This document shows positions 644 to 16,184 of a stretch of 23,904 nucleotides of DNA, piece by piece. The position numbers and the translations under genes are program-made. The first letter of the stretch is position 1; each line of letters opens with the position of its first letter. Source of the stretch: a virus; the IMG/VR virus record IMGVR_UViG_3300030106_003602, positions 1 through 23,904 of that record, one strand, 5' to 3'. The notes under the pieces were generated by a model. It was given only the letters and a program-made list of their open reading frames with translations. It did no database searches and was not told where the DNA came from.

Positions 644-650
644 AAAGATT

Positions 651-1481
651 ATGCCAATAATTGGAGCAAGAGGCGCAGCCTCATCAGCAGGATTCGGAGG
701 AATCGGAGGAGCAGCACCAAGAGCCCCTTACTCAGCTAGTTACTTAGTAATAGCAGGAGGTGGCCCAGGTTGGTTCTCAGGTCAAGCTCAAGAATCGGGT
801 GGTGGCGGAGCAGGCGGGTATAGATCTGCTTATCCTTCAGACTCAGTTTCAGGCGGTGGCGGATCAGTCGAAGCCCAAAAAACTTTAAACCCAGGTATAA
901 CCTACACACTCACTGTTGGTAGCGGAGGACAAGATAGTACTTTTTCAGGATCTGATATTACAGATGTGTCAACAACAAGAGGCGGAAAAGGAGCAGGTCC
1001 TTATGACCCTTCTACATCTGGTGGATCAGGTGGTGGCGGAAATTCTCAAGGCAGATCACCTTCTCCAGGAACTGCAAACGAAGGTTATGCAGGCGGGTCT
1101 CGAGGCGGCGGCGGGGCCGGCGCGGTTGGGGGATCATCAGGCGGGGGCGCGGGTGTGTCTTCTACAATTACTGGATCTTCAGTTGCGAGAGCTGGCGGCG
1201 GAGCTACGGCCGGGGGAACCGGGGGATCGGGCGGCGGCGGAAATGGCGGCCAAGGAGACCAAACAGGTCAACCAGGAACTGCTAACACAGGTGGCGGATC
1301 AGGGGCTGGCGGGTTAGTTCCAGGTCAAGATAGGGCCCCAGGAAGTCCAGGTTCAGGTGTAATTATTTTAAGAATGCCTTTGAAAAGTTTTTCAGGGACA
1401 ACTACAGGATCTCCAACAGAAGCAACGGATGGTACTGATAAAGTTTTAACATTCACAGCATCGGGGACATTAGACGGTTAA
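651..1481 (+). CDS. Glycine-rich tail adhesin / fibre tip protein
   Basis: A 276-aa protein dominated by glycine runs. Residues 30-60 (SASYLVIAGGG, then a GGGGAGGY block) match the start of the glycine-rich domain found in phage tail-tip adhesins. The C-terminal 30 residues (GTDKVLTFTASGTLDG) resemble the usual short beta ending of these proteins. By analogy with T-even gp38-type adhesins, the glycine stretches may form packed polyglycine-II helices displaying variable loops that touch the host receptor; this is inference. Pro-Gly pairs occur around residues 138-140 and 205-235. Positions 1090-1250 are unusually GC-rich and use GGC/GGG codons, unlike the GGA/GGT codons of neighbouring genes, hinting at recombination or a different origin for the loop region. 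Start chosen at ATG 651, behind a perfect Shine-Dalgarno. Confidence 0.75.
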   Translation: MPIIGARGAASSAGFGGIGGAAPRAPYSASYLVIAGGGPGWFSGQAQESGGGGAGGYRSAYPSDSVSGGGGSVEAQKTLNPGITYTLTVGSGGQDSTFSGSDITDVSTTRGGKGAGPYDPSTSGGSGGGGNSQGRSPSPGTANEGYAGGSRGGGGAGAVGGSSGGGAGVSSTITGSSVARAGGGATAGGTGGSGGGGNGGQGDQTGQPGTANTGGGSGAGGLVPGQDRAPGSPGSGVIILRMPLKSFSGTTTGSPTEATDGTDKVLTFTASGTLDG

Positions 1482-1483
1482 TT

Positions 1484-1924
1484 ATGGCACATTACGTAAA
1501 AATAGTTGATAACGTAGTTACTGAAAACATTGTGGTTCATAATAGTTGTGAACTAGATGAAAACGGTCAAGCATCAGAAGCAGTAGGAGTTGCTTGGGTC
1601 AAAAATCATCAAAATGATCCTGATGGAACTTGGTTAAAAACTTCTTACAATTCTAATAGAGGTGTTTATTACAAAGACGGAACAAACGTTCCTCATGAAG
1701 ATCAATCTAAATTATTTAGAAAAACTTTTGCTGAAGTAGGATTTGACTATGATCCTGTTAATGATTGGTTTAAACCAAATAAACCTGTAGACTCATTTGT
1801 ATGGAGCGACGAACATTGGGACTACAGACCACCACAAGCTGTACCTGATGACGGACAACAATACGATTGGAATGAAGAACAATACCAATCTACAGGTAAT
1901 GGTTGGGTCGTAAGATCAGAATAA
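1484..1924 (+). CDS. Small phage protein of the cyanophage/pelagiphage 'MAHY' type
   Basis: A 146-aa acidic protein starting MAHYVKIVDNVVTENIVV, 2 bases after the adhesin stop. It carries a Trp/Asp-rich C-terminal half (RKTFAEVGFDYDPVNDWF, then VWSDEHWDYRPP). I recognise this pattern from short conserved proteins encoded beside tail-fibre genes in marine myo- and podoviruses. Their role is not established; a tail-fibre accessory, chaperone or virion decoration role is commonly supposed. The central region SYNSNRGVYYKDG is also typical of the family. No catalytic motif, signal peptide or membrane segment is visible. The gene ends at 1924, directly abutting the stop codon of the opposite-strand oxygenase at 1925, so it marks the left boundary of the oxygenase island. 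Confidence 0.65.
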   Translation: MAHYVKIVDNVVTENIVVHNSCELDENGQASEAVGVAWVKNHQNDPDGTWLKTSYNSNRGVYYKDGTNVPHEDQSKLFRKTFAEVGFDYDPVNDWFKPNKPVDSFVWSDEHWDYRPPQAVPDDGQQYDWNEEQYQSTGNGWVVRSE

Positions 1925-2539
1925 TTATTTAAAAGCAGCGCCAGAAGCCCAACAGACTAAAGAGTTTCTTTCACCTTTTTTGACAGGTGTAACTTCATGC
2001 AACATAAAACTAGGAAAGACAACTAATAGACCTTGCTCTCTTTCTATTTTAGTTCCGTTTCTAGATTCATAAATTACAAGATCTCCACCTTTATATTTTT
2101 TAGGATCTGTTAATTGTATTGTACAAGATAGCTTTCTTACCATTACACCCGTGCCTCTATCAGTGTGAGCGAAGTAGTGTTGTTTTGGTCCGTAGGATGT
2201 AAATTGAAGAGACTCAGCTAATCCCCACATATCAAATTTATAATGTTCATGATTTAGCATAACCATAGCATCAACGACTTTTCTATATAACCAAACATAA
2301 TCGTTAACAGGTTTAATCCAAGATATAGAACTATCTCGTGCACCTTTTATTTCAGCAGTTTCTTCAGGGTTTGTACCGCCTATTTTACCTTTAGTTGTAA
2401 ACAAACTTTTACCGTATTTAACTATGTCATCACATTGTTCAGGTGTTAAAAAATTTCTTACCCACGCATACGGAGGCAGTTGATCTAAATGAAACGGCCA
2501 TGCCGTTGTGTTCATTTTTATTATTTCATCGTATTTCAT
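1925..2539 (-). CDS. 2OG-Fe(II) oxygenase, prolyl-4-hydroxylase-like
   Basis: A 204-aa protein with the double-stranded beta-helix signature of P4H/PKHD-type dioxygenases. H125-T-D127 sits in HYFAHTDRG, the distal H181 in FMLHEVTPV, and R191, the likely 2OG carboxylate ligand, in KGERNSLVCW. The GGDLVIYES strand at residues 151-159 and LLVVFPSFMLHEV at 171-183 are classical. Such enzymes couple 2-oxoglutarate decarboxylation to hydroxylation, often of Pro, Lys or Asn in proteins; the substrate here is unknown. It is the last gene of a three-gene leftward unit and overlaps the preceding gene by 14 bases. ATG at 2539 is used; an alternative ATG nine codons in (M9) would also keep the whole domain. 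It is closest in motif layout to the product of 5870-6430. Confidence 0.88.
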   Translation of the reverse strand: MKYDEIIKMNTTAWPFHLDQLPPYAWVRNFLTPEQCDDIVKYGKSLFTTKGKIGGTNPEETAEIKGARDSSISWIKPVNDYVWLYRKVVDAMVMLNHEHYKFDMWGLAESLQFTSYGPKQHYFAHTDRGTGVMVRKLSCTIQLTDPKKYKGGDLVIYESRNGTKIEREQGLLVVFPSFMLHEVTPVKKGERNSLVCWASGAAFK

Positions 2540-3017
2540 TTTTTATTCCTTTATAAGCTAGTGTTATTCTAGGTATTCCTTTTTCTTTCGGAGCTAGTCC
2601 ACGATGCCACAACTTTGCGTTAAATACAACAAGTTTATTTTGTTCAAAAGTTATTTTATGCACCTTATTATCTTTGTCTTTTATTTCAAACAATCCCGAA
2701 TCTTTTTTTAAAGTTGGCGTAACCATTAACATATAAGTTCTATCACCATCGTCTTTATGCCATCCTCCATCCATACCATTAAACTGCATATTGATGTATA
2801 TTCTTTTGAATTGATTTACTTTAAATTTGTTAAGAATTTTATAAGTTACAAAATTAGTAACTCCATCAGTATGAACTTCTGTATAAAAGAACGTACCTTT
2901 AGTTATACCAGGTCTAGACGCATGGCCATATTGATGTTGAGTATTAATTAAATAATGATTTGTTAAATAATTTATAAAGTCTTTATCTAAAAAATTTTTG
3001 TATTCTTCTACAATCAT
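2526..3017 (-). CDS. 2OG-Fe(II) oxygenase
   Basis: A 163-aa protein starting MIVEEYKNFLDKDFINYL, the usual short helical lead-in of small phage 2OG oxygenases. Ligands visible: H87-K-D89 in GGWHKDDGD, H138 in LWHRG, and R150 in GIPRITLAYK. The core has the expected order: an acidic turn, a strand with SGLFEIKD at 107-114, then LVVFNAKLWH at 129-138. Substrate unknown. The start codon overlaps the upstream stop as ATGA (3014-3017), which implies translational coupling within the leftward three-gene unit. It is smaller than the downstream prolyl-hydroxylase-like neighbour and clearly diverged from it, so recent tandem duplication is unlikely. Confidence 0.87.
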   Translation of the reverse strand: MIVEEYKNFLDKDFINYLTNHYLINTQHQYGHASRPGITKGTFFYTEVHTDGVTNFVTYKILNKFKVNQFKRIYINMQFNGMDGGWHKDDGDRTYMLMVTPTLKKDSGLFEIKDKDNKVHKITFEQNKLVVFNAKLWHRGLAPKEKGIPRITLAYKGIKNEIR

Positions 3018-3586
3018 CTCATTAATGGTCCTTCCATAAACAAAGCTAGTGTTTTTCTTTCTCCTGTTTCTACAGGCATAACCATATGATTAAGGTAAGA
3101 TCTAAATACAAGAACATCACCTGGCTGAGTAAACTCATTTACGATATAAGGACCTGAATTAAAAATGTGAAAGGCACCACCTCTATATGGTTTAGTAGAA
3201 ATATTAATTAAACAAGTTAACTTCATATCCTTGTATTGTTTAGTAGTCTGATCAATGTGCCACCCATAATTACCCTTAGTCTTTGAAGAATATAAATTAT
3301 AATTAATAAAATCTTTATCTCTTAATGGATAAACAGAATAACCAAAATGATTATCATTTGTGTGTATAATTAAATTTTCTAAATCACCTAATAGATGTTT
3401 TATTTTACCCCAATAAATTAACTTGGTATCTACATTTTTAATTTTATTATTGTCATGATCTTTAGCTGCGTGCTGCTCTGGTTCATCACCGTCAAAATTT
3501 TTACGTGCAAAATTATCTATTTCTTTAACTTCGCTTTTTGTAAAAACGTTTTTAAAATACCAATAATCAGGTCTTGTGCTAGCCAT
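3014..3586 (-). CDS. 2OG-Fe(II) oxygenase
   Basis: A 190-aa protein with H110-I-D112 (NYGWHIDQ), H167 (YLNHMVMPVETGER) and R177, an intact facial triad plus 2OG-binding Arg. YRGGAFHIFNSG at 134-145 is the strand before the distal His, and QPGDVLVFRSYLNH at 154-167 the standard closing segment. The N-terminus (YWYFKNVFTKSEVKEIDNF) is the helical cap common in phage and bacterial P4H-like enzymes. It is the first gene of the leftward unit: a sigma70-like promoter candidate lies at 3611-3637 and would give a leader of roughly 18 bases. The gene downstream starts within its stop codon (ATGA). Function beyond Fe/2OG-dependent oxidation cannot be told from the sequence. Confidence 0.88.
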   Translation of the reverse strand: MASTRPDYWYFKNVFTKSEVKEIDNFARKNFDGDEPEQHAAKDHDNNKIKNVDTKLIYWGKIKHLLGDLENLIIHTNDNHFGYSVYPLRDKDFINYNLYSSKTKGNYGWHIDQTTKQYKDMKLTCLINISTKPYRGGAFHIFNSGPYIVNEFTQPGDVLVFRSYLNHMVMPVETGERKTLALFMEGPLMR

Positions 3587-3610
3587 ATCTTTATTTCTAT
3601 CTATTGGACA

Positions 3611-3637
3611 ATTATAATAAATGCTTTATAAAGTCAA
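3611..3637 (-). promoter_or_regulatory. Candidate sigma70-like promoter for the leftward oxygenase unit
   Basis: On the minus strand TTGACT (3637-3632) and TATAAT (3616-3611) are separated by 15 bases, slightly short but acceptable. The predicted start near 3604 gives a leader of about 18 bases to the ATG at 3586. The -35 box lies inside the first codons of the divergent gene at 3621. AT-rich DNA produces such matches by chance, so this is only a candidate. Confidence 0.4.
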
Positions 3638-3971
3638 TGTGAATATAAAGTTTGCGAAAGAATACTTAAATAATACAGTATGGAATCTTAATAACTCAGA
3701 CTGGCAAGTGTCAGGTATTATTAAGAATAGGTCTAACGAAAACTTGAAGTTTGACATTCGTTTTTTAAAAGACTATAAACATAAAGGATCAGGAAAGATT
3801 ATATCGGAAAAATCAAAAGCTGATAAAGTTTTGTTTGAAGATAAGTCCTCTTGGTTATTAATAGACACGAAAGAGTTGATAAAATATATGAAAGTAAAAC
3901 AACTTAAACAAGTAACAATAGAAGAGTTAAAAGCTAATATAGATTGGACTATAGAATTACCGAAAGCATGA
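3621..3971 (+). CDS. Hypothetical protein, only non-oxygenase in the island
   Basis: A 116-aa basic, lysine-rich protein that I do not recognise. Visible features are a central stretch of charged strands (KFDIRFLKDYKHKGSGKI), then SEKSKADKVLFEDKSSWLLIDTKEL in two short segments, a helix rich in Lys, and the ending DWTIELPKA. There is no HxD motif, signal peptide or membrane segment. The D/K-rich core (D45, D68, D74, D82, K84) could suit a small nucleic-acid-binding or nuclease-like fold, but no recognised catalytic signature is present. It heads the six-gene rightward unit, and the next gene starts inside its stop codon (ATGA at 3968-3971), so it is probably co-translated with the oxygenases. 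A regulatory, adaptor or substrate-presenting role is possible but unsupported. Confidence 0.7.
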   Translation: MLYKVNVNIKFAKEYLNNTVWNLNNSDWQVSGIIKNRSNENLKFDIRFLKDYKHKGSGKIISEKSKADKVLFEDKSSWLLIDTKELIKYMKVKQLKQVTIEELKANIDWTIELPKA

Positions 3972-4477
3972 AACTAGATTTATTTCCTGTAACAGTATTT
4001 ATTGGTAACGTTGATTTAAAAAAGATAAAATTAAAATCAGAAATTAACACAGCGTTTTTATCCAATACTCCTACGTCTATAGATAGTAAAAATGAATTAG
4101 ATCCTGAAAGCGCTAAATATATTTTAAATGTCATTGGTAATTTATTGCACGAACAATACAAACATTTTAAATTAGATCTCTTAAGCATATGGAGAAACAA
4201 ATATCAAAACAATGACTTTCAAGAACCCCACATTCATTGTAACTCAAAGTTTTCTTTTATAATTTACGAAAAAGTAAATAAGGTAAATACTGTTTTTTTC
4301 AATCCTGCTAAATATTTAATAGACTGTATAGGTGCAGATTATGTTTATAGAAACTTTACACCTCAACTTAAAACAGGACAAATTATTATCTTTCCTTCTT
4401 ATGTTGAGCATATGGTAAATAAAAATTCAGATCAAGTAACTATATCAGGGAACCTAGGTTTTAAATTTAATGCATAA
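3968..4477 (+). CDS. 2OG-Fe(II) oxygenase-like protein, HxH type with Arg-to-Gln change
   Basis: A 169-aa protein from the ATG at 3968, preferred over 3944 because it overlaps the preceding stop as ATGA and begins MKLDLFPVTVFIGNVDL, the usual N-terminus of this family. It resembles the putative 2OG-Fe(II) oxygenase group in which the first metal motif is HxH: here H88-I-H90 in QEPHIHCNSKFSFIIYE, with the distal H148 in FPSYVEHMV. Where the related protein at 6924-7502 has NRVSISFN, this one reads DQVTISGN, so the usual 2OG-anchoring Arg is replaced by Gln or lies elsewhere. It may use a different co-substrate contact, bind metal by three His, or be catalytically altered. Substrate unknown. 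The next gene begins 8 bases before its stop. Confidence 0.8.
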   Translation: MKLDLFPVTVFIGNVDLKKIKLKSEINTAFLSNTPTSIDSKNELDPESAKYILNVIGNLLHEQYKHFKLDLLSIWRNKYQNNDFQEPHIHCNSKFSFIIYEKVNKVNTVFFNPAKYLIDCIGADYVYRNFTPQLKTGQIIIFPSYVEHMVNKNSDQVTISGNLGFKFNA

Positions 4478-4979
4478 AATATACAAAAGTGAAACAGTAA
4501 TTAAAAATAAAACTAAACTAGTAGAAGATCTTACCTATTGTAAAAATCGTAATTTATTTTCTAATTATACTTGGGAATACTACAAATATAATGTCTTTAT
4601 GCTTAATCCAAATAGTTTACTTATGAATAAATTATGTCTTGATTTAAAAAAAATTGTTAGAAACTATTTACAAACCGAAGATCCTTTATGGATGCAATGC
4701 TGGTTAAACTTTCATAAACAAGATGAAATATTAGATTGGCATAATCATGCGTGGCCTTACCATGGTTACATAAGTGTAAGACCCCACAACACAACAACTG
4801 TTTTTAAAAATTTTGAGATTAAAAATAAAATAGGCAATATATACATCGGTCCAGGAAACTTAGAACATAAAGTAAGAATAGATAAAAAATTTACCACACC
4901 AAGAATAACAATTGGTTTTGATATAAAAACAATACACAACAAAGTAGACGAAAAAATGATGTCTCTAATGCCTATATAA
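4470..4979 (+). CDS. 2OG-Fe(II) oxygenase-like protein, HxH type
   Basis: A 169-aa protein overlapping the previous gene by 8 bases. It has H91-N-H93 in LDWHNHAWPYHGYISV, distal H133 in GNLEHKVRI and R145 in TTPRITIGFDI, so the layout of a 2OG oxygenase is kept with His instead of Asp in the second metal position. WMQCWLNFHKQDEILDWH at 74-91 is the strand leading to the metal motif, and IGNIYIGPGNLEH at 121-133 replaces the more common L..FPS..LH segment. The 22-residue C-terminal tail after the core is probably a helix. H98 or D89 could act as alternate ligands. Role unknown; co-transcribed with adjacent oxygenases. Confidence 0.8.
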   Translation: MHKIYKSETVIKNKTKLVEDLTYCKNRNLFSNYTWEYYKYNVFMLNPNSLLMNKLCLDLKKIVRNYLQTEDPLWMQCWLNFHKQDEILDWHNHAWPYHGYISVRPHNTTTVFKNFEIKNKIGNIYIGPGNLEHKVRIDKKFTTPRITIGFDIKTIHNKVDEKMMSLMPI

Positions 4980-4980
4980 A

Positions 4981-5868
4981 ATGGACCCAATAAATTATAT
5001 AAAAGTAAAAACTATCGGTATTAAACATTCTCACAGTAATTTGTTTGAACACAGTTATAATCTTTATTTATTGTTACAACACATGAACTGTCCCAAACAT
5101 GTTTGTTTAGCCGGTCTGTATCACTCTATCTACGGCAATCAATATTTTAAACCACAGTTTGCTGTTAAGAGAAGTTTTATTAAAAAAACAATCGGTGTAA
5201 AAGCAGAAGCCTTAGTTCATAAATTTAATAACACTGAAAATAGAGACGAGTATTTTTTAAAACATGCTAACAAGTATAAAGAATTATTTTTAATTTGTTA
5301 TGTTAATTTATTAGATCAATCGGAAGATATCGATGATTTGTTAAATAGATATGTAGAAAAGTATAAAGAAATAAATAAAAAATTTAAAATAAGCAAACAC
5401 GTTAATGTTATAGATAATCTTTTAGATCAAACAGATTACTATAATTTATCTAGCGCTGTGTTAGATAAAGGTTTTCCTTGGTACTTTTCTGCTAGCAAAG
5501 TCGAAGATAATTATCCTCAGTTCGTACACAATTTTGTTTACAATAGTGCAGTCACTTCTGATTACATAAAATATTTAGATCCTATATTTGAAAAATTAAA
5601 TGCTAAAAGATTATTCAGAGTTAAATTAAATTACACTTCTAAAACATCTAAGATTATTAATTATGCTTTTCATCAAGATGTTAACATAGCTTGTAAAACA
5701 GCAGTGTATTATATTAATACAAACAATGGATATACAAGAATAAAAGATGGTAAAGATATTGAGAGTAAAGCAAATAGAATAGCTATCTTTAATAGTTCTC
5801 TTGAACACGCAGGATCCTCTTGCACCGATAAAAATTACAGGATAATATTAAACATAAATTATTTATAG
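4981..5868 (+). CDS. Fusion of DUF6817 (HD-like) domain and 2OG-Fe(II) oxygenase
   Basis: At 295 aa this is the largest oxygenase of the island because it has two domains. Residues about 6-115 look like DUF6817, a helical HD-related domain: H16, H24 (LFEHSYNLYLLLQ), CLAGLYHSIYGNQYF at 42-56 with H48, then IGVKAEALVHKF at 71-82 and ICYVNLLDQSE. The usual HD pair is HS in this family. Residues about 145-295 form an oxygenase with H231-Q-D233, YYINTNNGYTRI, H276 (SLEHAGSS) and R287 (NYRIILNINYL). The C-terminal half is clearly related to the protein at 7540-8052. The domain pairing suggests a two-step reaction on one substrate, but this is inference. It starts 1 base after the preceding TAA at 4977-4979. 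Confidence 0.82.
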   Translation: MDPINYIKVKTIGIKHSHSNLFEHSYNLYLLLQHMNCPKHVCLAGLYHSIYGNQYFKPQFAVKRSFIKKTIGVKAEALVHKFNNTENRDEYFLKHANKYKELFLICYVNLLDQSEDIDDLLNRYVEKYKEINKKFKISKHVNVIDNLLDQTDYYNLSSAVLDKGFPWYFSASKVEDNYPQFVHNFVYNSAVTSDYIKYLDPIFEKLNAKRLFRVKLNYTSKTSKIINYAFHQDVNIACKTAVYYINTNNGYTRIKDGKDIESKANRIAIFNSSLEHAGSSCTDKNYRIILNINYL

Positions 5869-5869
5869 A

Positions 5870-6430
5870 ATGGATAAAGACTTAAATCGTTATATATTAA
5901 AAACTAAGTTACTTACTAAAAAAGAATGTAAGACAGCGGTAGAAGAATTAAAAGATGCTAAATGGCATGAGCATTATTGGAATAGTCCTAGAGCTGGTAT
6001 TACTAGCGATAACGGTAGCCAAGAACCTGAAACAACATCTGAACTTATACCCTCACATGAATCGATTATGAATAAACTACATCCAAAAATATTACAGTAT
6101 ATGAAATACATTGATCTTCCTTGGTATGACGCATGGAACGGTTACACTAATTTAAAATTTAATAAATATACAACTAATACAAAAATGAAAATACATTGTG
6201 ATCACATACATGGTTTTCATAATTGTGGGCCTACAGGTGTTCCTATTCTGAGTTGTTTAGGATTGTTAAATAATGACTTTGAAGGAGGCGAAATAATGAT
6301 GTTTGAAAATGAAAAAATAAAATTAGAACCAGGTCAGTTGCTTATTCATCCATCCAATTTTTTATTTCCCCATGAAATAAAACCTGTTATAAAAGGTTTT
6401 CGATATTCATTTGTAAGTTGGGTATTTTAA
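5870..6430 (+). CDS. 2OG-Fe(II) oxygenase, prolyl-4-hydroxylase-like
   Basis: A 186-aa protein with H109-C-D111 (MKIHCDHIHG), FEGGEIMMFENE at 137-148, GQLLIHPSNFLFPHEI with H168, and R178 in KGFRYSFVSW. The triad and 2OG Arg are intact. The ending KPVIKGFRYSFVSW closely parallels PVKKGERNSLVCW of the protein at 1925-2539, indicating the same P4H-like subfamily although the rest has diverged. Three extra His (H112, H114, H117) follow the metal motif. The first 60 residues, including the HEHYWNSPRAGI segment, probably form the substrate-side cap. It starts one base after the stop of the fusion gene and is followed after one base by the next oxygenase, so it lies within one operon. Confidence 0.88.
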   Translation: MDKDLNRYILKTKLLTKKECKTAVEELKDAKWHEHYWNSPRAGITSDNGSQEPETTSELIPSHESIMNKLHPKILQYMKYIDLPWYDAWNGYTNLKFNKYTTNTKMKIHCDHIHGFHNCGPTGVPILSCLGLLNNDFEGGEIMMFENEKIKLEPGQLLIHPSNFLFPHEIKPVIKGFRYSFVSWVF

Positions 6431-6431
6431 T

Positions 6432-6932
6432 ATGGGAATAAAGATATACAAAAATGTTTTACCAGAAGATTTAATTAAAGAGGTATTTACTTATTTAGAT
6501 AATAATGCTTACAGAAATGTTTGGCGTTCAACAATATATTGGAAAGATAATTTAAAAGCTAAAAATCCAACAGCCTTACAAGTTACAGATCTTCCTATTT
6601 TTATGTCTGAAAGAGTTATTGATAATTTTGTAAAATTAAATAAATCTTACAAAAAATATAAACATCATTGTATGTTTTATATATGGCCACCTTTGAGTCA
6701 CATTGGCTGGCACAATGATGGTAAATGGCAAATGGGTGCAAGTATATATCTAAACAAAGAATGGGATAGAAATGACGGAGGTTTGTTTTTATATAAAGAA
6801 AAAGGACAAAATAAATTTTATGTCCCTGAATATAATACTTGTGTTGTTAACACTGACCACACTGATCATGCAGTATCAGCTTTGGCTTCGCATGGTCCAC
6901 ACAGATTAAGTATTCAAATATTTTCAGAATGA
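6432..6932 (+). CDS. 2OG-Fe(II) oxygenase
   Basis: A 166-aa protein with H94-N-D96 in SHIGWHNDGKW, NDGGLFLYKEKG at 114-125, a distal His most likely H146 in TDHTDHAVSAL (H143 is possible), and R158 in GPHRLSIQIF. The GWHxDG form and the G-P-x-R-x-S ending are typical of small P4H-like enzymes. The N-terminus (MGIKIYKNVLPEDLIKEVFTYL) is the standard helical lead-in. It is the last gene of the rightward unit; its final 9 bases overlap the 3' end of the opposite-strand gene at 6924. No terminator fits between them. Substrate unknown. Confidence 0.88.
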   Translation: MGIKIYKNVLPEDLIKEVFTYLDNNAYRNVWRSTIYWKDNLKAKNPTALQVTDLPIFMSERVIDNFVKLNKSYKKYKHHCMFYIWPPLSHIGWHNDGKWQMGASIYLNKEWDRNDGGLFLYKEKGQNKFYVPEYNTCVVNTDHTDHAVSALASHGPHRLSIQIFSE

Positions 6933-7502
6933 GTAATTAAAAGAGATAGAGACTCTATTTTCTTTTGAGTTATTAACATCTACAGAATGTCTTAGCCAAG
7001 ACGGAAATAAAACTAAAAAACCATCTTTAGGACTAACGTGCCATGCAGAAGAATTATATCTATCATAAGAATTAACATGTGTTCTTGGTAAATAGCTGCT
7101 CATCAAATCACCTATTGGATTTTCAAATATTAAATCTCCTGAGTCTTTAGGTGTTGATACATAATAAACTCCTGAGATGATAGCTTGAGGATGCATGTGA
7201 GATTTATTACTACAACCAGGTTTATTCACATTAACCCATAGGTTTGACATTTTAATATCTTTTTTAATTCTTAAAGAAGAAGAAAAAACTCGCATAGGTG
7301 TTTCTAAACTTTTGGTAAACTCATTTATAATCTTATCAGGTTTATCTAGTAGATTAGGACTTTGATATCCACCCGCATTAGATTTAATCACCGAAACTTT
7401 TTTCTTAGATAAACTTAAACACAACTTCTTGAGTCGTTTAAGATCATTAGGAACTTTAGTGTTTAAAGTTGGGACGGTGAATAATTCTGCTATCTGTATC
7501 AC
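6924..7502 (-). CDS. Putative 2OG-Fe(II) oxygenase, HxH family (2OG-FeII_Oxy_5-like)
   Basis: A 192-aa protein that matches the widespread phage/cyanobacterial family of putative 2OG oxygenases: LWVNVNKPGCSNKSHMH, then ISGVYYVSTP, DLIFENP, and LVLFPSWLRHSVDVN with NRVSISFN. Predicted metal ligands are H102, H104 and H172, with R183 for 2OG. It begins with GTG at 7502-7500: an in-frame TAA lies directly upstream, AGAGG sits 6 bases before the GTG, and the next Met is residue 70, too late for the domain. It is the last gene of the right-hand leftward unit. Its 3' end overlaps the convergent neighbour by 9 bases. Biochemical function is uncharacterised in the family as far as I know. Confidence 0.87.
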   Translation of the reverse strand: MIQIAELFTVPTLNTKVPNDLKRLKKLCLSLSKKKVSVIKSNAGGYQSPNLLDKPDKIINEFTKSLETPMRVFSSSLRIKKDIKMSNLWVNVNKPGCSNKSHMHPQAIISGVYYVSTPKDSGDLIFENPIGDLMSSYLPRTHVNSYDRYNSSAWHVSPKDGFLVLFPSWLRHSVDVNNSKENRVSISFNYSF

Positions 7503-7508
7503 TTACTG

Positions 7509-7513
7509 CCTCT
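7509..7513 (-). promoter_or_regulatory. Shine-Dalgarno deciding the GTG start
   Basis: AGAGG on the minus strand, 6 bases before the GTG at 7502, with an in-frame TAA between them. This makes GTG the only start that keeps the full oxygenase domain. Confidence 0.6.
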
Positions 7514-7539
7514 ATTCAATTCTGTCATTGGAAAGTACA

Positions 7540-8052
7540 TTAATAATAATTTAAATTGATAACCATTCTTCTATCTGAATTAGTTTGAGATACAGCTCTG
7601 TGTTTAATAGCTGAATCAAACATAACAATATGATTTGATTTTGACTGAACCATTTTTCTTTGTTTTCTTGACGCGCTATATTTATAGCTGCGTTGAAACT
7701 CTGTATATCCATTATTAGAATTTACATAAAATATGGCAGTCTTATGTTGTAGCTTAGGATCATTGTATTGATCAACATGCCAAGATGATTTTATTTCTTT
7801 ACCCTTGTTAATCGTAAGGTTAGCCCTAATATTTATTATCGCTATAGGTTTTAAATACTCCACTATAGGAGCTACCAAATTAAAGTAATCCGACTGTATA
7901 TTATGACTCCAATAAAAAGGATGATAAAAATAAGAACTGTCTTTCACACTAGCTTGATGTGGGTGATAGAACCACGGAAACTTTTCAGACATCATTGTGT
8001 CATGTAATGTTTGAAGATCTCCTAATTTTAATACTGCTTCTTTTACAATCAT
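7540..8052 (-). CDS. 2OG-Fe(II) oxygenase with NNGYT signature
   Basis: A 170-aa protein with H92-V-D94 (SSWHVDQYND), FYVNSNNGYTEF at 108-119, MFDSAIKHRAVSQ with H151, and RRMVINLNYY with R162 (R161 alternative). The NNGYT strand takes the place of the common GGxL strand before the distal His. The order K-T-A-x-x-Y-V/I-N-x-N-N-G-Y-T, then N-x-I-x-x-F-x-S-x-x-x-H, then R-x-x-x-N-x-N-Y is shared with the C-terminal half of the fusion protein at 4981-5868, so the two are paralogues or recent relatives. Here the DUF6817-like domain is absent. The start overlaps the upstream stop by four bases (ATGA at 8049-8052). A 37-base gap separates it from the next gene. Substrate unknown. Confidence 0.87.
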   Translation of the reverse strand: MIVKEAVLKLGDLQTLHDTMMSEKFPWFYHPHQASVKDSSYFYHPFYWSHNIQSDYFNLVAPIVEYLKPIAIINIRANLTINKGKEIKSSWHVDQYNDPKLQHKTAIFYVNSNNGYTEFQRSYKYSASRKQRKMVQSKSNHIVMFDSAIKHRAVSQTNSDRRMVINLNYY

Positions 8053-8588
8053 AAAAACCTACTCCATGAAACAACCATTCTTTTACTAAAAGAGTGTGCA
8101 GCGTGAGGTGTTCCTTTAGGTATATAAATAGCACCACCTTCTGATACTTCGTATACTTTTTGTAAACTAGGAAAAGAATAATATGCAGATCCGCATAAAC
8201 CTATGATACAAACATCCTCATTATCTGAGTGAGGATTACCCATGCTACTTTTAAACGATGTAAAAATATCAGGTCTAAAATTTTTATCATCTAAATTTTT
8301 GCCAAACACATTAGCAAGCTGTTCGTGTAAAGAACTAATTTTAGGATGCCTTCTTACATCGAAAGTTTCAAAGACGTGAGAAAACACATCAGCATGATTT
8401 ACACCAACATCAGGATTATGTTTTATCTCTGATCTAAAGTGAGACAAATCTAAAAGCTGAAATAAATCCTCAAAATAGAAGGGCGATTTGTAGTCGACAA
8501 TATTTTGAAAATGGACTATATCTCTTGGTAGAGGCGTCGTATTGAAGAATTTAATAAACTCTGATTTTAGGGTATTTTTTTCTTTCAT
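8049..8588 (-). CDS. Cupin-type Fe(II) oxygenase-like protein
   Basis: A 179-aa protein whose C-terminal 70 residues form a cupin/JmjC-like beta barrel: H120-S-D122 in MGNPHSDNEDVCIIGLCGSAYY, GGAIYIPKGTPHAAHSF at 151-167 with H162 (H165 alternative), and the ending KRMVVSWSRFL with R170. The PKGTPHAAHSF block is the classic second cupin motif, so this member is nearer to cupin_8/JmjC-like hydroxylases than to the P4H-like neighbours. The N-terminal 110 residues (PLPRDIVHFQNIVDYKSPFYFEDL in part) resemble the helical lead-in of such proteins, but I cannot name a family. It is the first gene of the leftward unit, with a promoter candidate 12 bases upstream. Whether it uses 2OG is less sure than for the others. 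Confidence 0.72.
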   Translation of the reverse strand: MKEKNTLKSEFIKFFNTTPLPRDIVHFQNIVDYKSPFYFEDLFQLLDLSHFRSEIKHNPDVGVNHADVFSHVFETFDVRRHPKISSLHEQLANVFGKNLDDKNFRPDIFTSFKSSMGNPHSDNEDVCIIGLCGSAYYSFPSLQKVYEVSEGGAIYIPKGTPHAAHSFSKRMVVSWSRFL

Positions 8589-8599
8589 ATTTAATGTGT

Positions 8600-8627
8600 A
8601 CTATACTAATTATTAATATATAATCAA
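8600..8627 (-). promoter_or_regulatory. Candidate sigma70-like promoter for the right leftward unit
   Basis: On the minus strand TTGATT (8627-8622) and TATAGT (8605-8600) are spaced by 16 bases, giving a start near 8593 and a leader of only about 5 bases before the ATG at 8588. No Shine-Dalgarno is seen, so the first mRNA could be almost leaderless. The region is very AT-rich, so a chance match is possible. A TATAAT at 8619-8624 on the plus strand lacks a partner -35 box. Confidence 0.4.
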
Positions 8628-8630
8628 GTT

Positions 8631-10583
8631 ATGGCTTTAAAAAAGGTAAAATTTCAACCAGGTTTTGATAAGCAAGGGACTCCTGCCGCATCTCCAGGTA
8701 AATGGATAGACGGAGACTTTGTTAGATTTAGATATGGAATACCTGAAAAGATCGGAGGATGGCAACAAATAACCAATGATCAAAATACATTACCAGGTGT
8801 AGCAAGAGCTCAACACACATGGACATCTTTAGCCGGAGAAAAGTATGCAGCGATTGGAACTTCTCAAGGTTTGTTTTTATATTACGGAGGTGCATTCTAT
8901 GACATTTCGCCTTTAGATGCTGCTCTATCTGGCACCGGTACGTTTACAACTTCAGCTGCAGCTGGGGCCACAGTAACAATTAATTTTACAGGTCATGGAT
9001 TAGAACCAGGTCGATATATTGTTTTAAGTTCTGTATCCATAGGGGCCAACACAACTTTAACAGCAGACGATTTTACTGCTCACCCTTTTGAAGTTTTAAC
9101 TACTGCCACTAATTCTTTTACCATCAGTTTAACTAATCCTGCTGCCGGTGTTACAACAACAGAGAACAACGTTACAGGAATGAGCGCTGGTGGATCTGTA
9201 ACCGTTACCCCATACACTGAAGTGGGACCTACAACTCAAACTACAGGTTATGGTTGGGGCACATACTTATGGGGCAATGGCACATGGGGAACAGAACGAG
9301 CAACTTCTAACGTTATTCTTGAGCCAGGTAATTGGTCTCTTGATAACTTTGGAGAAATATTAGTAGCGACAATTGCTAACGGTAAATCTTTTACTTGGGA
9401 TGCAGGAGCAACTAATCCTAGAACTATAAGAGCTGCTGTGATGAGCGGAGCGCCAACAGCCTCTAGACTAACCATTGTTTCTGAAACAGACAGACACTTA
9501 TTTCACTTAGGAACCGAGACAACAATCGGTAACTCATCAACACAAGACCCTATGTTTATTAGATTCTCAGATCAAGAATCTACGTCTGTATATGCACCTA
9601 CAGCTACAAACACCGCTGGAACTTTTCAATTAGATAAAGGCAACAAGATCGTAGCTGCTGTTCAAGGTAAAGATTATATTTTAATATTAACCGATCAAGC
9701 TGCTTATATCGCTCAGTTTGTTGGACCTCCATTTACTTTTAGTATTAGACAAGTTGGAACCAATTGTGGTTGTCTCGGACAACACGCAGTTGCCTTTGCG
9801 CAAGGTGCTGTTTATTGGATGGGTCTTTCAGGCGGATTCTTTCAATACGATGGTACGGTAAAACAATTACCATGTTTAGTAGAAGACTTTGTATTTACTA
9901 CAGGTGATGGAAATTTAGGTTTAAACTTTAATGCGAGTGAAATTGTTTACGCAGGACATAATAGTTTATACACAGAAGTAAATTGGTTTTATCCAAAATC
10001 AGGATCTACACAAATTGATCGAGTGGTTACTTATAATTATGGAGAAGCGAGTTGGTATACCGGATCACTAGACAGAACCACTTATCAAGATGCGGATGTT
10101 TATAGTGCACCTTACGCTACCGATTACATTCCAAAAGGATCTACGGATTCTAACAGTCCTTCGGACGTGCCGTTGTTCCCTATATCAGGAATTACCAACA
10201 CTTATGGGTCAACGGTCTATTATGCTCATGATGTAAATGTAGATCAAGTTAATAGCACCGGTACGAGTGCCATAGCTGCGTTTATCCGATCATCTGATTT
10301 TGATATTGATGATGGTGAGTTTTTAATGTCGATGAGAAGATTTATTCCTGATTACAAACAAATAGTTGGTAACTCTTTAATATCATTATTTATTAGTGAC
10401 TTCCCGTCACAACAACAGTCAGTGTCTCCACTAGGACCATTTACTGTTACAAGCACGACAACTAAAATAGACACAAGAGCAAGAGGCAGATTGCTAAGTG
10501 TAAAAATAGAAAACGAATCAGTTGGTGAGACTTGGCGATATGGATCTCTAAGACTTGATGCACAACCCGATGGAAGGAGATAA
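8631..10583 (+). CDS. Tail/head-completion structural protein, P22 gp10-like
   Basis: A 650-aa protein starting MALKKVKFQPGFDKQGT, with WIDGDFVRFRYGIPEKIGGW at residues about 25-44 and ending RYGSLRLDAQPDGRR. These ends are typical of a large structural protein that is widespread in marine podovirus-like genomes. It resembles phage stabilisation proteins of the P22 gp10 type, which plug the portal-tail junction (assignment from pattern memory). Residues 100-205 are Thr/Ser/Gly-rich and may be an inserted Ig-like domain. The rest is beta-rich with repeated Trp-Gly segments (GYGWGTYLWGNGTWGTE), consistent with a propeller. It resumes the rightward virion gene order after the oxygenase island. 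The small gene downstream starts 2 bases after its stop, with an AAGGAG ribosome site inside its last codons. Confidence 0.6.
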   Translation: MALKKVKFQPGFDKQGTPAASPGKWIDGDFVRFRYGIPEKIGGWQQITNDQNTLPGVARAQHTWTSLAGEKYAAIGTSQGLFLYYGGAFYDISPLDAALSGTGTFTTSAAAGATVTINFTGHGLEPGRYIVLSSVSIGANTTLTADDFTAHPFEVLTTATNSFTISLTNPAAGVTTTENNVTGMSAGGSVTVTPYTEVGPTTQTTGYGWGTYLWGNGTWGTERATSNVILEPGNWSLDNFGEILVATIANGKSFTWDAGATNPRTIRAAVMSGAPTASRLTIVSETDRHLFHLGTETTIGNSSTQDPMFIRFSDQESTSVYAPTATNTAGTFQLDKGNKIVAAVQGKDYILILTDQAAYIAQFVGPPFTFSIRQVGTNCGCLGQHAVAFAQGAVYWMGLSGGFFQYDGTVKQLPCLVEDFVFTTGDGNLGLNFNASEIVYAGHNSLYTEVNWFYPKSGSTQIDRVVTYNYGEASWYTGSLDRTTYQDADVYSAPYATDYIPKGSTDSNSPSDVPLFPISGITNTYGSTVYYAHDVNVDQVNSTGTSAIAAFIRSSDFDIDDGEFLMSMRRFIPDYKQIVGNSLISLFISDFPSQQQSVSPLGPFTVTSTTTKIDTRARGRLLSVKIENESVGETWRYGSLRLDAQPDGRR

Positions 10584-11212: not shown

Positions 11213-11384
11213 AATAAAATGTGAAACTGTTTATACTTGGCGTAACAAGAAAACAGGAGAAGTTTTTAAAGAAGAGAAAGAAGGACCCGATATTGTAAAA
11301 GACTGTACAGTAAAGGTAGATCCAAAAGGATTAGAAATAATACAGAAAGTAATGCAACAACAGAATGATAAATCAAAAGCCTAA
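11202..11384 (+). CDS. Small hypothetical protein (60 aa)
   Basis: A 60-aa charged protein (MTTRIKCETVYTWRNKKTGE) with a short beta hairpin followed by a likely C-terminal helix (GLEIIQKVMQQQNDKSKA). It overlaps the preceding gene by 11 bases and the following glycosyltransferase by 20 bases. I do not recognise a family. Its position suggests that it is translated with its neighbours. Overlap at both ends and ordinary codon use argue that it is real. Confidence 0.55.
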   Translation: MTTRIKCETVYTWRNKKTGEVFKEEKEGPDIVKDCTVKVDPKGLEIIQKVMQQQNDKSKA

Positions 11385-12297
11385 AGGTGGAACTGAATTA
11401 CAATTAGAATATCTATCTAACTATGTTGATAAAGAACTATTAGATAAAGTGCAGATAACAACCTCTGTGCCTGAAAAAATTCCACTACATCCAACTAAAC
11501 CGAATGTATTATGGCAAAAGAATTCTTGGGATCAACCAAACATTTTCCCCTGGTTCAATGATTCCAAGAATACCACTAAATATGATATGTACGTATTTAA
11601 TTCACATTGGAACTTAGAACAATTTCGTAAAAAATTTAAAATGCCTTTAGATAGATGTACTGTAATTAAAAATGGTATTGATAACATACCTGTAAGAAAA
11701 CCATATCAACAAGGTGAACCTATAAAACTTATACATCATTGCACACCATGGCGAGGGTTGTCCGTATTACTTGGTGCTATGCAGCTTGTAAAGAGCAACG
11801 TAACTTTAGATGTGTATTCAAGCTGTGAAGTATACGGAAAAGATTTTGCAGAAAAGAATGATCCACAATATCAAGGTCTATACGATCAAGCTAGAAAATT
11901 AAAAAACGTAAATTACATAGGATATAAACCTAACAGTTATATTAAAGAACATTTAAAAGATTATCATATGTTTGTGTATCCAAGTATATGGGAAGAGACT
12001 TCATGTATCTCGGCTATTGAATCAATGGCTGCGGGTCTTTACTGTATGCTCACGGACCTCGGAGCTCTCTATGAAACTTGTGCCGAGTACGCTTTATATA
12101 TTCCTTATGATAATAATTATCGAGCTTTGTCTCAAAAATTTGCTTACGCTATCGATGCGGTTGTGCCTACGTTGTCCGATCCTTCTTTACACGAACATTT
12201 AATGTTACAATCAGAATACGCAAGAAAGTATTATGGTTGGTCTAAGCAAGCTCTCAACTGGAAACGAACATTGGAAGGATTAATAAATGCAAAATAA
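11365..12297 (+). CDS. GT-B glycosyltransferase (GT4-like)
   Basis: A 310-aa protein with the layout of retaining GT-B glycosyltransferases. GGTELQLEYL at 8-17 is the N-terminal sugar/nucleotide loop, KYDMYVFNSHW at 72-82 and VIKNGID at 100-106 are usual landmarks of the first domain, and HHCTPWRGL at 124-132 opens the second domain. EETSCISAIESMAAG at 210-224 is the E-x7-E nucleotide-sugar motif (E211 and E219). It is shorter than typical bacterial GT4 enzymes, missing much of the N-terminal domain. Likely role: transfer of a sugar to a virion, host-surface or nucleic-acid target; the acceptor is unknown. It starts inside the preceding gene and its own end overlaps the next glycosyltransferase by 11 bases, so the pair is probably co-translated. 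Confidence 0.82.
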   Translation: MINQKPKGGTELQLEYLSNYVDKELLDKVQITTSVPEKIPLHPTKPNVLWQKNSWDQPNIFPWFNDSKNTTKYDMYVFNSHWNLEQFRKKFKMPLDRCTVIKNGIDNIPVRKPYQQGEPIKLIHHCTPWRGLSVLLGAMQLVKSNVTLDVYSSCEVYGKDFAEKNDPQYQGLYDQARKLKNVNYIGYKPNSYIKEHLKDYHMFVYPSIWEETSCISAIESMAAGLYCMLTDLGALYETCAEYALYIPYDNNYRALSQKFAYAIDAVVPTLSDPSLHEHLMLQSEYARKYYGWSKQALNWKRTLEGLINAK

Positions 12298-13150
12298 CGA
12301 ACCGATATGGTTTGGTGAAGGTGTTGAAACAATAGACCTAACCAATAAACCAACTATGGTAAACCCTAAATATAAAATTATGGTGTGTACACCGATGCAC
12401 AGTGGAGCAAGTATTCACTATGTTCAGTCTATGCTTAAATTTCAACAAGCCTGCATTATGAAAAATATTGTTGTTAGTTTTACTTTACTTAAATCTTCAC
12501 TTGTTCAACAAGGTAGAAACTTATGTGTAGCTGATTTTATAAACCATAAAGATAATTATACTCATCTTTTGTTTATAGACTCCGATATTGATTTCCAACA
12601 TAAAACTATATTTACTATGTTAGAAAAAGATAAAGATATTATAGCATGTCCTTACCCTATGAAGTTTTTAGATTGGGATAAGATGTTTAGAAAGCTTCAA
12701 AAACATGGAGCTAAAAATCCGGACCATATGTCTAAGTTAGGTTTTACTTTTCCTATAAAAATGAAAGATCCTAAAAAATTTAATGTAGAAGAAGGGTTAG
12801 TAGAAGTTACTCATGCTCCTACAGGATGTATGTTAATTAAAAGAAGTGTTATAGAAAAGATGATAAAGGCTCACCCCGAGTTAGAGATCTATCAACCCAC
12901 TTTTATCAACGGTAAAGAAACTAAAAAGCCTAATATGTATAACTTATTTGAGTGTTTGCATGACCCTAAAACTAAAAGATACTTTGGTGAAGACTTCGGT
13001 TTCTGTCAAAGATGGCTAGAAATGGGCGGTAAAACTTATCTTTATGTCTTAGACTACATTACTCATGTAGGAGATCATCAATATTGTGGTCGTTTTTGGG
13101 ATGAACTAACCGATCTTAAAACAGTTGACCCTGTTAAAAAAATCAAATAA
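12287..13150 (+). CDS. GT-A glycosyltransferase (GT2-like)
   Basis: A 287-aa protein with a GT-A fold: YKIMVCTPMHSG at 29-40 is the first nucleotide-binding strand, and THLLFIDSDIDF at 92-103 contains the D98-S-D100 metal-binding DxD. HAPTGCMLIKRSVIE at 176-190 and FGEDFGFCQRWLEMG at 233-247 carry the acceptor loop and the likely catalytic E235/D236, with H260/H264 near the end. The layout resembles inverting family 2 type enzymes found in phages and viruses. No membrane segment is seen, so it acts in the cytosol. It is paired with the GT-B gene, which suggests two consecutive sugar additions. Acceptor unknown. Confidence 0.8.
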   Translation: MQNNEPIWFGEGVETIDLTNKPTMVNPKYKIMVCTPMHSGASIHYVQSMLKFQQACIMKNIVVSFTLLKSSLVQQGRNLCVADFINHKDNYTHLLFIDSDIDFQHKTIFTMLEKDKDIIACPYPMKFLDWDKMFRKLQKHGAKNPDHMSKLGFTFPIKMKDPKKFNVEEGLVEVTHAPTGCMLIKRSVIEKMIKAHPELEIYQPTFINGKETKKPNMYNLFECLHDPKTKRYFGEDFGFCQRWLEMGGKTYLYVLDYITHVGDHQYCGRFWDELTDLKTVDPVKKIK

Positions 13151-15288: not shown

Positions 15289-16184
15289 TGGCAACAACAT
15301 ACGAAACACTTAGTAGACGAGCACCCTTTTTAGAAGCAGCTCAAGAAGAATACATAGATTTATTAACCCAACAAGTAGGTAGAGCTCCAGGTTCGGCTGG
15401 TGTTCCTACATTAGCTGAATTGGGTCCACAAGTTGCTGGTCAAAATGTTTTAACTCAACAAGCACAACAAGCGGCAGCCACTCAAGCAGGTCTTGGTCAA
15501 TTAACATTTGGACCTGAAGGACAACTGACGGGAGCAGCGGCTGGCACAGGCGTTGCAGGCTTTCAACCATTCTTAGATCAAGCAGCAGCTTATTCGGGTC
15601 CACAAGCTTTTCAATCTTTTATGTCTCCGTATCAACAACAAGTTATTGATACAACATTAGCAGAGTTTGATGTACAGGCGCAAAGAGGTATACCTGCTTT
15701 AAGAGCTCAAGCGATTGGATCAGGAGCATTCGGTGGAGGAAGAGAAGGAGTTGCCTTAGCAGAGTATCAAACAACATCAGATAGAAACAGAGCTGCTTTA
15801 CAAGCACAATTATTACAACAAGGATTTAGTCAAGCTAATCAACTGGCCTCACAAGCGTTTGCACAGCAAAGAGGATTAGCCTCTTTACAACCATCTTTAG
15901 TAGCAGCTAATGTTCAACAGTTAGGTTCAGCAGGTACAAGTGGTTTAGCTTTCAATCAAGCATTATTAGATGCAGCACAACAAAGAGCACAGTTAGCTTA
16001 TCAAGAACCTATTAGCAGATTAAATGTTTTAGGCACAGGACTAGCGTCACAAGCAGGCGGTATACCAATATCTACACAAACTACACAACCAGGTGCAGGT
16101 GGAGGCACTGCCGGTCCACTATCACAGGCTCTTCAAACAGGCTTACAAGCTTACGGCCTAGGAACAATATTCGGAGGTAAATAA
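15288..16184 (+). CDS. Gln/Ala-rich virion protein, internal virion type
   Basis: A 298-aa protein very rich in Gln, Ala and Gly, with no charged domain core. FMSPYQQQVIDTTLAEFDVQ at 110-129 and GGGREGVALAEYQTTSDRNR at 149-168 are conserved landmarks of a structural protein that I recognise from marine podovirus-like genomes. The central part is probably a long helix bundle (Q/A heptads), which fits an ejected, channel-forming internal protein such as T7 gp14; this is inference. It starts in a TAATG overlap with the 694-aa gene, and the following gene likewise starts on its stop. The C-terminus ends in a Gly-rich tail (GTIFGGK). Confidence 0.6.
   Translation: MATTYETLSRRAPFLEAAQEEYIDLLTQQVGRAPGSAGVPTLAELGPQVAGQNVLTQQAQQAAATQAGLGQLTFGPEGQLTGAAAGTGVAGFQPFLDQAAAYSGPQAFQSFMSPYQQQVIDTTLAEFDVQAQRGIPALRAQAIGSGAFGGGREGVALAEYQTTSDRNRAALQAQLLQQGFSQANQLASQAFAQQRGLASLQPSLVAANVQQLGSAGTSGLAFNQALLDAAQQRAQLAYQEPISRLNVLGTGLASQAGGIPISTQTTQPGAGGGTAGPLSQALQTGLQAYGLGTIFGGK

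Follow-up and report, generated by a model that had tools for sequence, protein, structure and literature searches.

A dense island of predicted Fe(II) oxygenases appears to be exchanged together with an adhesin-like gene in relatives of HTVC023P-type pelagiphages

Introduction

Why would a phage carry a row of mutually dissimilar oxygenase genes, packed side by side next to an adhesin-like gene? The question is raised by a 23.9-kb IMG/VR virus record (IMGVR_UViG_3300030106_003602, positions 1 to 23,904; the whole of this stretch is referred to as the window), in which 12 tightly packed open reading frames (ORFs), named genes A to L, fill positions 1925-8588 in three units of alternating strand: A, B and C on the minus strand, D, E, F, G, H and I on the plus strand, and J, K and L on the minus strand again. 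Most of them are predicted 2-oxoglutarate (2OG)-Fe(II) oxygenases. To the left of this island lie a Gly-rich adhesin-like gene and then a small tail-associated gene ending at 1924, and to the right a virion structural gene of family phrog_3287 starting at 8631. Here we propose that the adhesin gene (651-1481), the small tail-associated gene and the oxygenase island (1925-8588) almost certainly constitute one cassette that is exchanged as a unit between conserved flanks, and that the cassette is probably functionally linked to host recognition.

Nucleotide searches against phage records gave only short matches (69-77% identity), and relatives were therefore sought by protein searches. The right-flank virion gene is 56-59% identical to its counterparts in HTVC027P and HTVC023P, two cultured HTVC023P-type pelagiphages that share the downstream order of the window (glycosyltransferase, large virion protein, helicase) and carry 3-4 annotated or cryptic oxygenase-like genes at the equivalent site. 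These similarities place the window phage among the relatives of HTVC023P-type pelagiphages, a group defined by PolA phylogeny (a DNA polymerase gene is absent from the window), and because of this relationship its host is probably SAR11, an abundant ocean bacterium.

Results

An adhesin-island block between conserved flanks

In total 87 IMG/VR loci (loci are denoted L with a number) were fetched by the right-flank and left-flank genes, 62 of which have both flanks. Seven loci (L085-L091) share the gene set of the window, and L059, a short contig, has part of it. Comparison of L085, L088 and L090 with the window yields a DNA identity of 83-98% across 650-8640 versus 57-76% on either side. On the left the exchanged block begins at about 600-720, where the adhesin gene starts, and on the right it ends sharply at 8640, where the virion gene starts. 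In these three loci, the island proteins are 88-99% identical to those of the window and the virion protein 66-68%, and the synonymous substitution rate (dS) drops from about 1.6 to 0.04-0.85 within the block. The small tail-associated gene is 92-95% identical in L085-L090. The reciprocal case is found in L005, L007, L008 and L009, where the backbone is 79-92% identical to the window (91-93% for the right-flank gene) and the block is unrelated, the adhesin and the island displaying nothing above background.

Pairs of backbone and cassette recur in separate metagenomes (L085/L087/L090 and L088/L089), which speaks against assembly chimerism. The enzyme set also appears to have been maintained for some time, since L091 keeps all eleven window enzymes in the same order at 58-96% identity. 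The original prediction for this stretch, a dedicated multi-step modification system, is in agreement with such a persistent, ordered eleven-enzyme set in the window and L091; the co-movement with the adhesin had escaped it.

Island content and the adhesin

The primary test of whether island content follows the adhesin employed 22 loci retrieved by the right-flank gene alone, i.e. blind to the adhesin, and compared island similarity with the similarity of neighboring genes. Island and adhesin similarity are correlated given the right-flank gene (partial Mantel 0.51, p=0.0005), as opposed to 0.06 (p=0.23) for the island and the adjacent right-flank gene given the adhesin. The adhesin effect is kept after centring the matrices or when using shared-ortholog counts (0.40-0.52, p=0.0005), and after centring the right-flank gene has a small effect (0.14-0.17, p=0.02-0.03). 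In a second lineage of 19 loci, characterized by a tail-collar adhesin and minus-strand islands, the effect is 0.39 (p=0.0005) for the adhesin and smaller, 0.17 (p=0.02), for the right-flank gene. The gene between adhesin and island reaches 0.20 in the lineage of the window and -0.04 in the second, below the adhesin in both, a pattern not predicted by simple hitchhiking. Together, these correlations indicate that the enzymes carried by a phage depend on its adhesin.

An oxygenase hot spot

At least one oxygenase-like gene is present in every island with both flanks (62/62), with a range of 1 to 12 oxygenases per island. Oxygenase-like genes account for 309 of the 371 island genes (83%), 282 identified by profile comparison at a probability of at least 90% (a few large families being added by hand) and 27 at the motif level. 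Family profiles run against every ORF detected one oxygenase among 407 flanking genes (1/262 downstream, 0/145 upstream). This sole oxygenase outside the islands, in L048, is positioned four genes after the virion gene and just before the first glycosyltransferase, a possible second insertion site.

The island oxygenases fall into about 58 sequence families. Within the window, the island genes are 22-31% identical to one another, and nearly all have a closer relative in the island of another phage; in-place duplication was rejected on these grounds. As the closest relatives mostly reside in islands of other phages, the locus was assembled from a shared pool. Variable gene content between constant flanks, which the original prediction had suggested to look for, is what the 62 loci display, and its proposal of a collecting locus for accessory enzymes is supported by this pattern together with the pool of about 58 families; the set did not turn out to be a common fixed module of known function. 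With constant flanks, variable content and an adhesin as neighbor, the site has the makeup of a hypervariable host-recognition island.

The islands of relatives carry further cargo, including methyltransferases and the following genes:

L031 2282-3793, also L008, L005 and L006: tryptophan halogenase or related flavoprotein
L028, L045, L050, L055, L082 and L083: NodU-like carbamoyltransferase
L017 3431-5258: sulfotransferase with an APS-kinase-like gene

We note that the island gene L089 8083-8625 matches phrog_1644, 'minor coat protein', yet has the HxD...H...R pattern. The same label is attached to gp037 of pelagimyophage HTVC008M (L101 6876-7580), which is grouped with a 2OG gene and two 'endonuclease V' genes in a small cluster close to tail genes, possibly a parallel island in another phage family.

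Assignment of the island genes

The genes of the window are as follows.

651-1481, plus strand: Gly-rich adhesin-like protein, 276 amino acids, left member of the exchanged block (Pfam Gly_rich_2, PF21722, above cut-off; phrog_2295)
1484-1924, plus strand: small tail-associated protein between adhesin and island (phrog_7759, function unannotated)
1925-2539, minus strand: gene A, PKHD-type 2OG-Fe(II) oxygenase (2OG-FeII_Oxy_3 6e-16; phrog_61 2e-36)
2526-3017, minus strand: gene B, phrog_274-type 2OG-Fe(II) oxygenase (phrog_274 8e-22; 2OG-FeII_Oxy_3 4e-4)
3014-3586, minus strand: gene C, 2OG-Fe(II) oxygenase (2OG-FeII_Oxy_3 2.6e-10; phrog_61 9e-16)
3621-3971, plus strand: gene D, island companion of 116 amino acids, possible PD-(D/E)XK-like fold (AlphaFold2 model, VIA-align)
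3959-4477, plus strand: gene E, 2OG-FeII_Oxy_5-type oxygenase, HxH variant (PF13759 7e-9; phrog_81 2e-27); an alternative in-frame TTG start is possible at 3944
4470-4979, plus strand: gene F, oxygenase-like, HxH variant (phrog_2696 3e-46; phrog_81 4e-5; PF13759 0.006)
4981-5868, plus strand: gene G, DUF6817 (HD-like) domain fused to a 2OG-Fe(II) oxygenase (DUF6817 2e-15 at residues 13-83; phrog_274 9e-43 at 137-294)
5870-6430, plus strand: gene H, 2OG-Fe(II) oxygenase (2OG-FeII_Oxy_3 3e-10; phrog_61 7e-26)
6432-6932, plus strand: gene I, 2OG-Fe(II) oxygenase (2OG-FeII_Oxy_3 3e-6; phrog_274 5e-6)
6924-7502, minus strand: gene J, 2OG-FeII_Oxy_5 / TIGR02466 oxygenase, HxH variant (PF13759 2e-28; phrog_81 8e-43; TIGR02466 2e-37)
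7540-8052, minus strand: gene K, phrog_274-type 2OG-Fe(II) oxygenase (phrog_274 1e-37; 2OG-FeII_Oxy_3 4e-5)
8049-8588, minus strand: gene L, cupin/JmjC-like oxygenase candidate (phrog_4992 7e-10; weak Cupin_2/JmjC_2; invariant residues)
8631-10583, plus strand: virion structural protein ('stabilization protein' in a relative), constant right flank (phrog_3287)
11365-13150, plus strand: two glycosyltransferase-like genes, constant downstream backbone (the first Glycos_transf_1, the second only a weak Anp1 match)

Pfam and PHROG profiles assign ten genes (A, B, C, E, F, G, H, I, J and K) to the 2OG-Fe(II) oxygenase superfamily, and gene A in addition matches PiuC-type PKHD hydroxylases in the PDB by sequence (2e-7 to 2e-11). 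As the Pfam scores of B, F, G and K are under the gathering cut-off, the assignment of B, G and K is based on phrog_274 and the metal motif, and that of F on phrog_81, the motif and its main profile phrog_2696, a family annotated as function unknown. Profile comparison linked gene L to none of the other island families and its cupin/JmjC matches are weak, so that its reading as an oxygenase relies on H120-D122, H162 and R170, which are invariant in nine sequences down to 29% identity. Gene D was ruled out as an oxygenase by profile comparison. The predicted oxygenases hence number 10 to 11 of the 12 island genes, with L as the weakly supported eleventh.

Alignments of 4 to 54 sequences per family show, without exceptions, that the first metal motif reads HxD in the A/C, B, G/K, H, I and L families, and that HxH takes its place in the E, F and J families. 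E, F and J depart from the classical triad, and their chemistry may differ. All twelve island genes are under purifying selection, with a ratio of nonsynonymous to synonymous substitution rates (dN/dS) of about 0.04-0.29 in every comparison, which argues against any of them being a decaying copy. Against a defence-system library, the oxygenases matched generic 2OG profiles only. The original prediction had counted ten oxygenases in eleven genes, with metal ligands visible in each, in three units of alternating direction between an adhesin module and a virion gene. Its ten are borne out by the profiles, or are one too few if L is included, but the genes total twelve; the motif is present in all predicted oxygenases, albeit as the non-canonical HxH in three; and the arrangement stands, the flanks being confirmed by Pfam and PHROG.

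The transcription units are deduced from gene direction alone, because promoter and terminator scans found no excess of sites over shuffled sequence. The glycosyltransferase-like pair follows the right-flank virion gene in most relatives with enough downstream sequence. In gene G, the HD motif of the DUF6817 domain reads HS; the fusion of this domain to an oxygenase is reminiscent of PhnY/PhnZ, in which a 2OG enzyme is paired with an oxygenase of the HD type. Further downstream (window 13204-17473), a GGRIGF/GGRVN motif is repeated several times in virion-region proteins of 694 and 429 amino acids.

Ferrochelatase and endonuclease V labels

Ferrochelatases have been described as partners of these oxygenases (PMC9599517; PMC11561400, naming phrog2954). 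HTVC023P gp67 (L093 8295-8915), annotated as 'putative ferrochelatase', matches phrog_2954, and no ferrochelatase domain was detected in it, with no Pfam match at E<=0.1 and no NCBIfam match. The phrog_2954 family is found in many islands and has conserved HxD, H and R residues. Its AlphaFold2 model, with a predicted local distance difference test (pLDDT) score of 93.6, matches the P. putida prolyl-4-hydroxylase (P4H) in Foldseek at 3e-10, and the 881 PDB matches at E<=0.001 are led by P4H and other 2OG enzymes. The model thus identifies the 'ferrochelatase' family as having the prolyl-4-hydroxylase fold, and we reject the ferrochelatase partnership (phrog_2954/3531) on fold. Because phrog_2954 is modeled as a P4H, the published co-occurrence of 2OG and ferrochelatase genes would be that of an oxygenase beside an oxygenase, and looks like an annotation artefact. 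Similarly, phrog_274 goes by the name of 'DNA endonuclease V', and many cyanophage records call it denV, a label that we reject for G and K, where 2OG matches and the HxD motif are present.

Gene D

Gene D occurs in most islands of the lineage of the window. Among its further relatives, a 2OG gene is located within 5 kb in 68/72, and the virion gene is present in 65/72, usually 14-48 bases downstream of D. The AlphaFold2 model of gene D (pLDDT 88.6) gave no significant Foldseek match to the PDB or to viral models. The eight best VIA-align rows are all nucleases with Z of 5.1-7.5, where values below 8 can reflect a common arrangement; we take these to be mostly of the PD-(D/E)XK fold and to include the homing endonuclease I-Ssp6803I. 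One relative matches a type II restriction enzyme profile at 0.003. The conserved residues are G32, D45, R47, K69, D82 and E85, with no clean D...(D/E)xK motif. A PD-(D/E)XK-like fold is therefore possible for the modeled protein, and we speculate that gene D, which usually occupies the right end of the island, may act as a homing-type nuclease and in this way help the block to displace rivals. In the second lineage, the island end held by D in the lineage of the window is occupied by a methyltransferase and a ParB-like protein of 109 amino acids, just upstream of the virion gene (L048, L057, L067, L068, L071, L078).

Discussion

Based on the exchange of the block and the correlation between island and adhesin, we tentatively favor, with somewhat less than even confidence, the following mechanism: a host-recognition cassette whose enzymes tailor the host surface molecule bound by its own adhesin. 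The oxygenases would be expressed together with the virion genes, late in infection, and would oxidise the host surface glycan or receptor, or cytoplasmic precursors, recognised by the adhesin of the same cassette. Infected cells and debris would then cease to bind progeny virions and same-type competitors, and each adhesin would consequently require its own matching set of tailoring enzymes. That the host surface is the substrate of the enzymes is the less secure part, plausible and still rather doubtful. A glycan target is indirectly suggested by the carbamoyl-, sulfo- and methyltransferase cargo in the islands of relatives, as well as by the glycosyltransferase-like genes 3 kb downstream. 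Glycans are typically decorated by transfer of carbamoyl, sulfo and methyl groups, and 2OG enzymes that act on lipopolysaccharide have precedents in LpxO and KdoO. For SAR11 myophages, a comparable host-recognition cluster has been proposed to alter the host surface and to serve coinfection avoidance (PMC7029224).

Several points weigh against this mechanism. Some coupling is expected from hitchhiking within one recombination block, the weak correlation of the intervening gene could reflect saturation, and identity between low-complexity Gly-rich proteins is a noisy measure. The adhesin call itself is based on a low-complexity Gly-rich family and not on structure, and a sequence search of the adhesin against the PDB gave no match. 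On the enzyme side, several oxygenases are PKHD or prolyl-hydroxylase-like, whose best-known substrates are proteins or peptides, and the halogenase cargo is a poor fit to a glycan target.

The enzyme types lead to the nearest alternative, which we regard as almost as plausible as host-surface tailoring and, taken by itself, as rather unlikely: the oxygenases modify the adhesin or tail tip of the phage through hydroxylation, perhaps with further tailoring, and tune receptor binding with an adhesin-specific set. The coupling between island and adhesin fits this equally well, gene A has its nearest counterparts among PKHD-type hydroxylases, and the model of the related phrog_2954 family has the fold of the P. 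putida prolyl-4-hydroxylase, which was solved with a protein substrate, EF-Tu. However, eleven dissimilar enzymes are many for a single Gly-rich protein of 276 amino acids, the carbamoyl- and sulfotransferase cargo of relatives is better suited to glycans or small molecules, and our literature search yielded no direct report of a hydroxylated phage tail protein. It is also conceivable, if unlikely, that the site is a mere collecting locus, where unrelated accessory enzymes accumulate because recombination is frequent and track the adhesin by hitchhiking. The range of 1 to 12 oxygenases with unrelated extra cargo is compatible with this, as is the shared pool indicated by window genes that are nearly all closer to those of other islands than to each other; in addition, the cassette has variable members, namely the c9 gene and gene F, the latter otherwise found only in L091 among window-type cassettes. 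Random uptake, however, does not predict that 83% of the island genes belong to one superfamily versus 1/407 of the flanking genes, and the lower correlation of the intervening gene in both lineages, the retention of the ordered eleven-enzyme set in L091 and purifying selection on all genes likewise speak against mere accumulation.

The two remaining explanations place the target away from the adhesin. Modification of phage or host nucleic acid, or protection of phage DNA, appears highly improbable: the Tet/JBP and AlkB groups of 2OG enzymes act in this manner, phrog_274 carries its 'DNA endonuclease V' label and one weak match reads 'alkylated DNA repair', but genes A-L have no Tet_JBP or AlkB-type Pfam match at E<=1, the DNA hypermodification genes of this phage group are reported near PolA and not at this site (PMC9599517), and the coupling is to the adhesin. 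Scarcely credible, finally, is a metabolic sink or signal device that draws down host 2-oxoglutarate or iron, as proposed for cyanophage 2OG oxygenases (PMC3037559). Marine phage genomes commonly carry more than one 2OG gene, often several (PMC3037559, PMC9599517), yet such a device needs neither some 58 divergent families nor matching to an adhesin, and the ferrochelatase partner behind the iron-metabolism argument is itself predicted to have a 2OG fold. Among the targets listed in the original prediction, tail or adhesin residues and the host surface are consequently favored, as the island follows the adhesin, and nucleic acid is not.

Returning to the host-recognition cassette, a broader and admittedly doubtful extension is that the most abundant marine phage group uses a swappable chemical code for host recognition. 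In this code, each block would combine an adhesin with as many as twelve oxidative tailoring enzymes that match it, in some cases with a halogenase or a carbamoyl-, sulfo- or methyltransferase. The oxygenases would come from the pool of about 58 families, and a small homing-type nuclease within the block may promote its spread. More directly, the enzymes of these islands are reassigned toward host recognition, as the set moves together with the adhesin and can be predicted from it, and the ferrochelatase argument of two papers is removed (PMC9599517, PMC11561400). Should enzymes and adhesin indeed be matched, predictions of which phage infects which SAR11 host could draw on enzyme content. The loci also represent a large natural library of small oxygenases.

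Earlier work has already described multiple 2OG genes in this phage group (PMC9599517), islands with Fe(II) oxygenases (PMC3909814) and host-recognition modules that are exchanged between phages (PMC10579305). Wittmers et al. 2022 (PMC9599517) described eight 2OG orthogroups in HTVC023P-type pelagiphages, nearby but not adjacent, as partners of ferrochelatase, and the site was not analysed. The phage group is the same and so is the presence of several non-orthologous 2OG genes near each other; here, in contrast, eleven are adjacent in a defined hot spot and are exchanged with an adhesin, and the 'ferrochelatase' family has a predicted P4H fold. The host-recognition cluster of pelagimyophages and cyanomyophages (PMC7029224) is likewise hypervariable, adjoins tail fibre genes and has carbohydrate-active cargo. 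It is found in T4-like myophages, measures about 45 kb and is rich in glycosyltransferases, whereas the islands described here span 2-8 kb in podophages, are almost purely composed of oxygenases and are precisely bounded.

Work on metaviromic islands in marine phages (PMC3909814) likewise encountered Fe(II)-dependent oxygenases frequently in under-recruiting islands and filed them under host recognition; it showed neither a cassette structure nor coupling to an adhesin. The host-recognition module of Alteromonas phages (PMC10579305) resembles the present cassette in that distantly related phages have a receptor-binding gene and its partner in common, the partner being a tail fibre chaperone there and an oxidative enzyme set here. 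T4-like cyanophages carry 2OG-Fe(II) genes of the same PHROG families (phrog_274; PMC3037559), but in the regions viewed these are single genes among replication, tail and hypothetical genes, unlike the adhesin-linked block of the window. As far as the literature consulted shows, the size and purity of the locus, the definition of the hot spot, its exchange together with the adhesin on which its content depends, and the corrected reading of 'ferrochelatase' are apparently new.

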